From an uncultured Cetobacterium sp. (GTDB lineage Bacteria; Fusobacteriota; Fusobacteriia; Fusobacteriales; Fusobacteriaceae): 64,000 nucleotides of DNA. The notes under the pieces were generated by a model. The model made no database searches. It worked only from the letters and a program-made list of their open reading frames with translations, and was not told the origin of the DNA. Every line of letters starts with the position of its first letter. The first letter of the stretch is position 1. The stretch is from NCBI RefSeq assembly GCF_945952365.1, contig NZ_CAMFHX010000001.1:62001-126000 (forward strand). Reading direction: 5' to 3'. The translations under genes were made by a program, and so were the position numbers. This document shows positions 34,015 to 57,667 of the stretch, one piece after another.

Positions 34015-34032
34015 TAATTAAATAATTTATAA

Positions 34033-34108
34033 ACTACTAGGGGTGCCTTCGGGCTGAGATTTTACCCTTAGAACCTGATCTAGTTAATACTAGCGTAGGG
34101 AAGTAGTC
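34033..34108 (+). promoter_or_regulatory. TPP riboswitch (THI box) aptamer
   Basis: The region reads ACTACTAGGGGTGCC...GGGCTGAGAT...TACCCTTAGAACCTGATC...GTTAATACTAGCGTAGGGAAGTAGT when taken in parts, with P1 ACTACT/AGTAGT and all the THI-box landmarks (GGGTGCC, CTGAGA, ACCCTT, GAACCTGATCTAGTTAATAC, GCGTAGGGAA). It precedes tenA and a thiamin-precursor transporter. Confidence 0.95.
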
Positions 34109-34141
34109 TTAACACACATTTATCTTCTATAATTGTGTTCT

Positions 34142-46345: not shown

Positions 46346-46390
46346 CCTGAAAAACTCATTTCAACTATGTTAGCTTAAAATAATAATCTA

Positions 46391-46554
46391 CGATAGCACA
46401 ACACCATTTCGGTGACAGTTGTATAAATCTTCTTTATACACCCAGCTCATCTTTCTAGTAGAAAAAGTTGAACTTCGGCGAACTTCCCTTTCAACAAACC
46501 TCTTTGACCTACTAAATCTTAGTTTGTTTACTTTTGAATTTCGCAACCTCTATC
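46391..46554 (-). promoter_or_regulatory. Lysine riboswitch (L-box) aptamer
   Basis: Minus strand shows the L-box landmarks in order: GATAGAGGTTGCGA, AGTAGGTCAAAGAGG, GAAAGGGAAGTTCGCCGAAG, GAGCTGGGTG, ACTGTCACCGAAATGGTG, and closing GTGCTATC pairing with GATAG. It lies between the promoter at 46572-46600 and lysC. This and the terminator account for the 309-nt gene-free stretch. Confidence 0.95.
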
Positions 46555-46571
46555 AAATATTAATTTAAAGT

Positions 46572-46600
46572 AGAATATCATTTTTCTTTTCGAATGTCAA
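46572..46600 (-). promoter_or_regulatory. Promoter of the lysine-riboswitch operon
   Basis: Minus strand TTGACA (46595-46600), 17-nt spacer, TATTCT (46572-46577) with TGA extension. The argG stop codon TGA is part of the -35 hexamer. Confidence 0.85.
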
Positions 46601-47799
46601 AACTTTTTTCTTAATAAAGCTTCTATTTTTATTGGAAGTCCAAACAGATTTATAAATCCTTCTGCGTCCTGTTGGTTATAAACACTATCTTTTTCAAACG
46701 TTGAGTACTCCTCTGAGTATAAAGAAAATGGTGATGTTGTCCCTGCTAAAATTATATTTCCTTTATACAATTTTAACTTCACTTCACCTGTAACAAACTC
46801 CTGTGTAACATCTACAAAAGCTGAAATAGCTGCTCTTAAAGTTGTAAACCACTGTCCATTATAAACTAATTTTGAAAAATCGTGAGAAAGTTTTACTTTC
46901 TCTTGGTAGGTATCTTTATCTAAGCATAATCTTTCTAACTCTTCATGTGCAAAGTATAGAATTGTTCCACCCGGTGTTTCATAGACTCCTCTAGATTTCA
47001 TTCCAACCAATCTATTTTCAATCATATCTAAAACACCAATTCCATGCTCCCCACCTATTTTATTAAGTTTTTTTATAATTTCAACACCTGACAGTTTCTC
47101 TCCATTTAAAGCTACAGGAACTCCTTTGATAAACTCTAAAGTTATATATTCACTCTTCTCGTTTGCAGCTTCTAAAGTTTTTACCCATTGCAATACATTT
47201 TCAAAATTTGGCTCTTTTGATGGATATTCCAAATCGAACCCTTCGTGGCTCACATGGAAAAGATTTTCATCTCTACTGTATGGAGATTTTTTATGAAACG
47301 GAAGAGTTATTCCTTTTTTCTCTAAATATTCTATCTCCTCCTCTCTAGATTTTATATCCCAAATACGCCATGGTGCTATCACCTTTAAAGATGGATCAAG
47401 AGCTTTTATAGCTAACTCAAATCTAACCTGATCGTTTCCTTTTCCTGTTGCTCCATGCGAAATATATTTCGCTCCTTCTTTGTGTGCTATTTCTACTAAG
47501 GCTTTTCCTATTACTGGTCTTGCCATAGATGTTCCTAATAGGTATTTATTTTCATATATTGCACCAGCTTTCAGGGTTGGAAATATATAATCATTTACAA
47601 ACTCCTCTACTTTATCCACCAAATAAAATTTTGATGCTCCTGTCACATAAGCTTTCTCCTCAATGGCTTTAAAATCCTCTTTTTGTCCAACATCCACAGC
47701 AACAGCTATAACCTCGTAATCATAATTTTCCTTTAACCACGGTACTATAACCGATGTATCCAATCCCCCAGAATATGCTAAAATAACCTTTTCTTTCAT
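46597..47799 (-). CDS. argG: Argininosuccinate synthase
   Basis: ArgG condenses citrulline and aspartate with ATP. Seen: [19 protein letters not shown] (residues 6-24, the PP-loop), [26 protein letters not shown] (about 113-130), [12 protein letters not shown], and [26 protein letters not shown] in parts. 400 aa is typical. It follows the binding-protein gene by 11 nt; no argH is visible in the window, so citrulline-to-arginine conversion must be completed elsewhere. Confidence 0.96.
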
Positions 47800-47810: not shown

Positions 47811-48524
47811 CTAGTTAAAATATTTTATAATAAGTTTGTCGTAAGTTCCCTCTTCTTTTATCTCTTTTAAAGCTTTGTTTATCGATTCTAGAAGCTCTTT
47901 TTTTCCTTTAGCAACAGCTATAGCATACTTCTCCTCTTCTGCATCAATTTTTACTATTTTCAATCCTTTATTTTGTACTATATAACTTCCAGCTGGTGCT
48001 GAATCAAGAATCATAGCATCCACTTTTCCTGAAGTCAAAGCCATAATTGCTCCTGGGGCTGAGTTATACTGAACTTTATCTACTCCCTCTATTTTTGAAA
48101 CCATCAAATCTCCTGTATACCCCAATACTACTCCTACTTTTTTCCCTTTTAATGAATCTAAATTTACAATATTTGAATCTTTTTCAGGTACTATTATCAC
48201 TTGGTTAGCAACAAAATAATCATCCGAAAAATCTACAAACTTCTCTCTTTCTGCTGTCATAGTCATTCCAGCAATAACTAAATCCAATTTATTTGTTTGA
48301 AGTGCTGGTAGTAATCCATCAAACGTAATATTTTTTATTTTTATCTCTTTTCCAATTTTTTCTCCAACTTTATTTATCAAGTCAATATCAAATCCAACAA
48401 TCTCTCCATTTTCTAAATATTCGAATGGTGCAAACTCTGCATTTGTTCCCACATATAAAACATCATTTCCAAAACTTAAAACTCCCATAATACAAAATAA
48501 AACCAACGATAAAATCTTTTTCAT
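47811..48524 (-). CDS. Amino-acid ABC transporter substrate-binding protein (basic amino acid type)
   Basis: Periplasmic SBP_bac_3 protein, 237 aa, with a signal peptide ([19 protein letters not shown]). Seen: [36 protein letters not shown] in parts, [37 protein letters not shown] in parts, and GVVLGYTGD. Its fit to ArtJ/ArtP-type arginine/lysine binders and cotranscription with argG suggest arginine or another basic amino acid as ligand (inference). No permease or ATPase gene adjoins it. RBS AGGAGG. Confidence 0.85.
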
Positions 48525-48568
48525 AACTCTCTCCTCCTAATTTTTATATTTTTATTTATTTTTTTGTA

Positions 48569-48601
48569 TAAAAAAAGCCAGTGCTATAAAAACACTGACT
48601 C
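48569..48601 (-). terminator. Attenuator terminator ahead of the binding-protein/argG operon
   Basis: Minus strand GTCAGTG-TTTTTATAG-CACTGGC followed by seven T. The loop segment TTTTATAG can pair with CTATAAAG at 48617-48624 upstream. Confidence 0.85.
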
Positions 48602-48611
48602 AAAATACAAT

Positions 48612-48643
48612 TGTAGCTTTATAGAATAATAAAAAAATCTACA
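48612..48643 (-). promoter_or_regulatory. Attenuator hairpin overlapping the leader stop codon
   Basis: Minus strand TGTAG (48639-48643, containing the leader TAG) pairs with CTACA (48612-48616). The intervening CTATAAAG (48617-48624) is the predicted antiterminator partner of the terminator loop, giving 1:2, 2:3 and 3:4 alternatives. Confidence 0.6.
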
Positions 48644-48740
48644 GCATAACAACATTCGTGAGATTGTTTTTTAGGGCACACAAAAACATATTTTTTTTAA
48701 TCATTTTAGTTTGTGTCCTTAAAATCCTTCTCATAGTCAT
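48639..48740 (-). CDS. Leader peptide rich in basic residues, probable attenuator of the arginine operon
   Basis: 33 codons: starts MTMRRILRTQTKMIKKNMF and ends NVVML. The ATG follows AAAGGAGGAAAGCAG, a strong ribosome-binding site, within 35 nt of the promoter. It has three Arg codons among the first eight and four Lys codons. A hairpin (GG-ACACAAA with TTTGTGT-GCC, 48675-48718) lies inside the frame just after the Arg codons, and the stop codon is in the next hairpin. The layout fits translation-controlled attenuation by arginine (or lysine) supply, or a nascent-chain sensor; neither is shown. Confidence 0.65.
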   Translation of the reverse strand: MTMRRILRTQTKMIKKNMFLCALKNNLTNVVML

Positions 48741-48774
48741 CTGCTTTCCTCCTTTAATTTTTTTATTTGAAATG

Positions 48775-48804
48775 ATGATATCAGATTTAATATGAAAATG
48801 TCAA
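48775..48804 (-). promoter_or_regulatory. Promoter of leader peptide-binding protein-argG operon
   Basis: Minus strand TTGACA (48799-48804), 18-nt spacer, TATCAT (48775-48780) with TGA extension. Confidence 0.8.
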
Positions 48805-48848
48805 TCTTTTTTTGAAAAAATTTTTTCATTTTTTATTTTTTGATTTTA

Positions 48849-48889
48849 TTTATACTGTATATTTTTTTAATTATAATTCTATATAGAAT
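48849..48889 (+). promoter_or_regulatory. Candidate hut promoter with overlapping palindrome
   Basis: TTTATA (48849-48854), 17 nt, TATAAT (48872-48877), overlapped by the perfect 14-bp palindrome ATTCTATATAGAAT (48876-48889), a possible operator. The remaining leader to 48962 shows no other structure I can support. Confidence 0.45.
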
Positions 48890-57503: not shown

Positions 57504-57554
57504 TCAAGTACCACTTAAAATATATTTTTCAAGAAGTTTTTTCGTATAATCTCT

Positions 57555-57622
57555 ACCCATAGCATCCATATTTGTGGTTAGGACGTAGAAACTTTTGGAC
57601 CATATCTCCAAAATATACGAGT
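57555..57622 (-). promoter_or_regulatory. Purine (guanine-class) riboswitch aptamer
   Basis: Minus strand: P1 ACTCGTA with TATGGGT, J1/2 TATTT, P2 TTGGA/TCCAA closing loop GATATGG (identical to the B. subtilis xpt L2), J2/3 AAGTTTCTAC, a short P3 GTCC/GGAT with loop containing CCACAAA (xpt: CCGTAAA), and J3/1 GC before TAT. The C at the ligand-pairing position predicts guanine/hypoxanthine rather than adenine. P1 depends on G-U pairs, and TATACGA just downstream can pair with TCGTATA of the 5' P1 strand instead. Confidence 0.85.
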
Positions 57623-57638
57623 AAACTTTTTATTTTTT

Positions 57639-57667
57639 ATAATACCATATTTGTATGCAAAGTTCAA
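57639..57667 (-). promoter_or_regulatory. Promoter of the purine-riboswitch operon
   Basis: Minus strand TTGAAC (57662-57667), 17-nt spacer, TATTAT (57639-57644) with TGG extension. Confidence 0.75.

Follow-up and report, generated by a model that had tools for sequence, protein, structure and literature searches.

In the 64,000-nucleotide window of an uncultured Cetobacterium sp. analysed here (contig NZ_CAMFHX010000001.1, positions 62,001 to 126,000), the genes for a basic-amino-acid-binding protein and for argininosuccinate synthase (argG) are preceded by a short open reading frame (ORF) and an intrinsic terminator, which raises the question of whether a ribosome on that ORF decides the transcription of the operon and, if so, what it reads there. 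An earlier note on this DNA had read the region as a three-state, leader-peptide attenuator of transcription that responds to arginine and lies ahead of uptake and argG genes, and conservation and folding support that proposal. On the modelled structures we consider it probable that the feature is a ribosome-mediated transcription attenuator with the logic of the trp, his and leu leaders, sensing arginine through an AGG codon and controlling the operon of the substrate-binding protein (SBP) and argG.

Organization of the leader and its operon

The leader and the operon occupy the minus strand of the window, with the following parts.

48775..48804, minus strand: promoter, TTGACA (48804-48799), an 18-nt spacer and TG-TATCAT (48780-48775), 11/12 consensus matches
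48748..48755, minus strand: Shine-Dalgarno sequence of the leader ORF, AAAGGAGG, recognized by sequence and kept in homologs
48639..48740, minus strand: leader ORF of 33 codons, MTMRRILRTQTKMIKKNMFLCALKNNLTNVVML, with profile homologs in 23 genomes
48726..48731, minus strand: codons 4-5, AGA AGG, extra Arg codons of Cetobacterium leaders that are not conserved outside the genus
48717..48719, minus strand: codon 8, AGG, the conserved control codon, AGG in 23/23 profile leaders
48705..48740, minus strand: seg1 (ORF nt 1-36), which forms the 5' side of the protector and lies mostly within the footprint of a ribosome that has codon 8 in its A site
48649..48685, minus strand: seg2 (ORF nt 56-92 here, ~57-82 in the general model), which forms the 3' side of the protector, from folding and duplex search
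48660..48671, minus strand: antiterminator part of seg2, ORF nt 70-81, in duplex with the terminator 5' arm
48588..48601, minus strand: seg3, terminator 5' arm and loop, antiterminator partner of seg2, from duplex search and folding
48570..48601, minus strand: intrinsic terminator, stem 48601-48575 and seven T, -13.8 kcal/mol
47811..48524, minus strand: basic-amino-acid ABC transporter SBP (SBP_bac_3 match)
46597..47799, minus strand: argG, argininosuccinate synthase (NF001770, 592 bits, above cut-off)

Transcription is predicted to start near 48767 (minus strand), and a TTGAC with a -10-like hexamer lies upstream of nearly all homologous leaders. Much of this anatomy had been described in the earlier note, and its strong promoter, strong ribosome-binding site, 33-codon frame, seven-T terminator and downstream basic-amino-acid-binding protein and argG were all recovered; the terminator search returned 1 terminator against 0.1 expected in shuffles. 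The hairpin that the note placed inside the frame, GGACACA:UGUGUGCC, is likewise present in the window leader, where it belongs to the conserved protector. The best NCBIfam match of the SBP is to lysine/arginine/ornithine binding, below that model's cut-off.

Taken alone, the fold of the window leader is mildly unusual relative to shuffles (z -2.05). Rfam covariance models gave no family above threshold in 48500-48850, neither a T-box nor a known riboswitch, and at a permissive threshold the leader returned chance-level matches only. Elsewhere in the window, a lysine riboswitch lies at 46386-46560 (minus strand), between argG and an aspartate kinase gene, so that arginine and lysine control elements are adjacent on the same strand; TPP and purine riboswitches lie at 34029-34118 (plus strand) and 57540-57640 (minus strand).

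Distribution within the Fusobacteriaceae

A DNA search of the family returned near copies within the genus and one in a sister genus, and leaders of the same kind were seen upstream of SBP homologs in other genera. A profile built from 18 leader peptides recovered 23 leaders in five genera among 98 Fusobacteriota genomes (E values of 3e-14 to 2e-9), with no further match at E <= 0.001 in those genomes outside the five genera. Three additional leaders upstream of SBP-argG (G037, G049 and G051) were recognized by eye, bringing the total to 26 in seven genera of the Fusobacteriaceae, with carriers that include Cetobacterium sp. UBA6069 and Fusobacterium mortiferum An814.

The gene order leader, SBP, argG holds in every representative inspected and in every clade inspected. 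The leader is present in 24 of 25 genomes whose argG is at least 71% identical, and 11 genomes of the same genera that lack argG also lack the leader, a co-occurrence that is partly expected because the elements form one operon. The one exception, G046 (L280, G046:C9:8800-10500), carries an argG 79% identical to that of the window with the SBP downstream of it, and no recognizable leader upstream of argG. Within 1.2-3 kb upstream of ten SBP/argG operons that are more distant, no leader of this kind was seen, though some of these operons may begin farther upstream.

An invariant AGG codon

What these leaders share is an arginine at codon 8 in 25 of 26 (at codon 7 in G037), encoded by AGG in all 26, that is, in the 23 profile leaders and the 3 found by eye. 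AGG accounts for only 38 of the 627 Arg codons (6%) in the ORFs of the window, over which codon usage was measured, and AGA for 549 (88%). The peptides themselves diverge widely (MTMRRILRTQ..., MLKALKLRNRKY..., MMTILNLRLHN..., MKGSGFARQRK...), M1 and R8 being the only invariant residues among 18, and the neighbouring codon 7 is variable (TTA, TTG, CTA, ATG, ATC, TTT or GCA). The Arg/Lys-rich start noted earlier holds for the window peptide as far as lysine is concerned, but Lys-richness is not conserved and the conserved element is AGG at codon 8; leader codon conservation had been suggested as a check, and the key codon bears it out.

Strong preference for one synonymous control codon is expected of attenuators on theoretical grounds (PMC1183508). 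Each leader has only 1-3 Arg control codons and no run of them, with a single Arg codon within the first 12 in G047, and by the same theory so few codons may make for modest sensitivity (PMC1183508). Pairing in the RNA is insufficient as the sole reason for AGG, since in several g5 leaders the third-position G is in a G-U pair or unpaired and an A would pair equally or better; in Cetobacterium and g4, where the third base pairs with C in the protector, structure may contribute to the conservation. A single tRNA-Arg(CCU) gene stands beside multi-copy tRNA-Arg(UCU) in G005 and G025, and most other Cetobacterium genomes contain close matches to it; a search of the window's own draft genome did not find the gene.

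A rare codon could also act without reference to arginine, if AGG or its Shine-Dalgarno-like AAGGA slowed ribosomes constitutively and thereby set a fixed readthrough or reported general translation capacity. The scarcity of AGG fits such a device, as do the AGG/AGA pauses of S. aureus rbfL, which occur in vitro under optimal conditions too (PMC13009471), and the leaders that, like G047, have one early Arg codon. We nevertheless regard it as improbable, because the operon consists of argG and a basic-amino-acid SBP in every inspected clade, as arginine sensing predicts, and because the further early Arg codons are enriched in AGG as well (40 AGG against 12 AGA in the first 12 codons of the leaders).

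Probable sensing by codon identity rather than peptide sequence

Arginine sensing by codon stalling has also to be weighed against arrest by the nascent chain, which the earlier note had offered as an alternative: a peptide of the SpeFL or TnaC kind would stall the ribosome from within the exit tunnel on binding free arginine or ornithine, and the RNA switch would read that stall. It is favoured by the basic residues close to the N-terminus, by an FFN-like motif at codons 20-22 common to many Fusobacterium leaders, and by the precedent of SpeFL, a leader (orf34) with Arg residues (PMC6386406). The conserved peptide that such a sensor calls for is not seen, given the near absence of invariant residues, and a peptide sensor would not require the conservation of AGG beyond that of Arg itself.

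Natural variants bear on the same point. The ORFs of G049 and G051, of only 18 and 17 codons, stop short of seg2 and of the FFN-coding RNA, yet both leaders keep UUUUUAAUGUUUUC at nt ~66-85, where it pairs with the terminator arm; the FFN motif therefore reflects RNA pairing. The leader of G004 has lost one base after codon 16, which changes all the remaining peptide sequence; apart from that its RNA is retained. Together these variants indicate that the leader does not work through its C-terminal peptide, and they count against arrest by the nascent chain. The distance of the Arg codons from the stop-codon hairpin, which had motivated that alternative, poses no problem, since seg1 of the protector lies under a ribosome at codon 8, and arrest by the nascent chain is then not needed. 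We judge it quite improbable, and retain codon-level sensing of arginine.

A probable RNA switch set by ribosome position

When the ORF was searched for its best duplex with the terminator 5' arm, every one of the 23 profile leaders gave a start at ORF nt 57-70, and all but one an end no later than nt 86, in sequences that vary from clade to clade. The pairings were followed in a pre-terminator folding model that leaves out kinetics and RNA upstream of the ribosome. Folding downstream of a placed ribosome gave antiterminator pairing for ribosomes at codons 2 to about 16-18, and the pairing was lost with the ribosome past about codon 22; at codons 8-10 the ribosome frees seg2 in nearly all leaders. 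A ribosome with codon 8 in its A site has a footprint of about nt 4-34, which takes in 20 of the 25 paired nucleotides of seg1. In ribosome-free RNA with its full 5' end, seg1 is the main partner of seg2, leaving almost no antiterminator pairing in 22 of 23 leaders and partial pairing in G034. Several clades have a seg1 that copies the terminator arm, with ACATTAAA or GCATTAAAA at codons 4-6 and again in the terminator.

Across 13 clade representatives, which are not fully independent, the difference between a codon-8 stall and free RNA exceeded that in dinucleotide shuffles of the region after codon 10 (Fisher p ~4e-7). The window leader's own switch was not significant against shuffles (p 0.54), because the 5' UTR is available as a partner for its terminator arm when that arm is free, and G009 switches poorly in the model; the case for the switch is carried by conservation across genera. 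Covariation in the alternative stems, a check proposed earlier, was obtained in part: it is modest for the protector (6 double-change cells, this count and the covariation score each being reached by 1/500 shuffles) and absent from the antiterminator (2:3) columns inside g4/g5, where the core is invariant.

The version of the switch drawn in the earlier note, in which the outcome depends on a hairpin at the stop codon and on the antiterminator CTATAAAG:TTTTATAG, and the ribosome acts at that codon or close to it, can be dismissed as scarcely credible: its 8-bp pairing is drawable in the window and G007, but a mismatch breaks it in G006, it is lost in G003, G004, G005 and G009, where the hairpin is also broken or absent, and in nearly all leaders the duplexes that the spacer between ORF and terminator makes with the terminator arm do not exceed shuffles (z +0.3 in the window's own genome).

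Proposed mechanism

The arginine attenuator would operate as follows. With ample Arg-tRNA, the ribosome would pass codon 8, seg1 and seg2 would pair behind it, and this pairing would let the terminator form and transcription stop. When the Arg-tRNA that decodes AGG is scarce, the ribosome would stall when codon 8 (or 10) reaches the A site, masking about nt 4-34, that is, seg1; seg2 would then be able to pair with the terminator 5' arm during its synthesis, blocking the terminator and allowing the SBP and argG genes to be transcribed. If the leader were not translated, seg1:seg2 would form and the terminator would win.

The hallmarks of an attenuator are present: a short leader ORF with its own ribosome-binding site, predicted to be translated, between the promoter and the first structural gene; control codons matching the amino acid that the operon supplies by synthesis or import; an intrinsic terminator ahead of the first gene; and, by folding, a mutually exclusive protector and antiterminator switched by ribosome position. 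Anatomy, conservation, AGG invariance and mutually exclusive pairings were computed; we infer that Arg-tRNA shortage is the signal, as we do the direction of the response in the cell and the isoacceptor specificity. A more far-reaching reading, which we put forward tentatively and think rather less probable than its opposite, is that the leader responds, through its fixed AGG, only to how far the rare tRNA-Arg(CCU) is charged, and that this AGG logic recurs before other basic-amino-acid ABC genes, which would make an arginine leader regulon in the Fusobacteriaceae.

Other leaders

A second Arg-type leader, MILRNKRAFSKYNNLEKLSLLLWKF, was seen in the window's own genome (L220:400-477, G000:C2), followed by a terminator and another SBP paralog; it has homologs in L297, L298 and L299, and the first Arg is AGG in 4/4 homologs. 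The switch model gave no on/off behaviour for the L220 leader, and we do not claim it as the same device. Short ORFs with early AGG codons and terminators also precede basic-amino-acid ABC genes at L068:2353, L089:3804 and L090:3466 (MLFRNDRNRVQ..., MKLRNLRSILN... and MLRTIRFRKYL..., respectively). A leader with methionine codons, MTNYNLISKTTMMNMMPMGVGTKN, in L002 (own genome, G000:C23, reverse complement position 1331) has hairpins and a terminator before a MetN-like ABC ATPase, as well as a homolog in G003 (L302) with MMNMMMPM, and looks like a methionine attenuator.

Relation to known systems

The trp, his and leu attenuators (PMC1183508) resemble the Fusobacteriaceae leader in their short leader ORF, whose translation passes control codons specific to the amino acid of the operon, their mutually exclusive protector, antiterminator and terminator, and their one preferred synonymous control codon. 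The Fusobacteriaceae leader differs from them in its amino acid, arginine, in having 1-3 control codons rather than a run, with one AGG fixed at codon 8, and in a seg2 that can fall outside the ORF (G049, G051). In Salmonella orf34-speF (SpeFL), early Arg codons of a short ORF also choose between two RNA structures according to arginine (PMC6386406). The Salmonella leader acts through RNase G decay, Rho termination and exposure of the ribosome-binding site of the ornithine decarboxylase gene, and rare and frequent Arg codons both work (PMC6386406), whereas the leader described here combines an invariant AGG with an intrinsic terminator ahead of argG; the two leaders showed no relation in sequence.

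S. aureus rbfL (PMC13009471) is likewise a short upstream ORF, whose RKR motif slows ribosomes at low arginine via AGA/AGG. It acts on translation by blocking the ribosome-binding site of a biofilm regulator, so that starvation leads to repression (PMC13009471), in contrast to the transcription antitermination of arginine genes, with predicted induction on starvation, of the Fusobacteriaceae leader. Arginine T-box leaders (PMC1262725) share RNA-level antitermination of arginine genes by tRNA-Arg charging; T-boxes, however, bind tRNA directly, whereas this leader has an ORF predicted to be translated and no Rfam T-box match. The attenuators listed in one survey are those for his, thr and phe, with arginine represented by T-boxes (PMC1262725), and the open PMC literature that we searched contained no description of a transcription attenuator for arginine ahead of arginine genes and nothing on arginine leaders in Fusobacteriota.

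An attenuator of this kind would extend peptide-coded attenuation to arginine and to the Fusobacteriaceae. The one rare AGG fixed amid divergent leaders makes the selective-charging prediction, of which synonymous codon is used and why, a testable one, and it points to a nutrient that these gut and opportunistic bacteria monitor.
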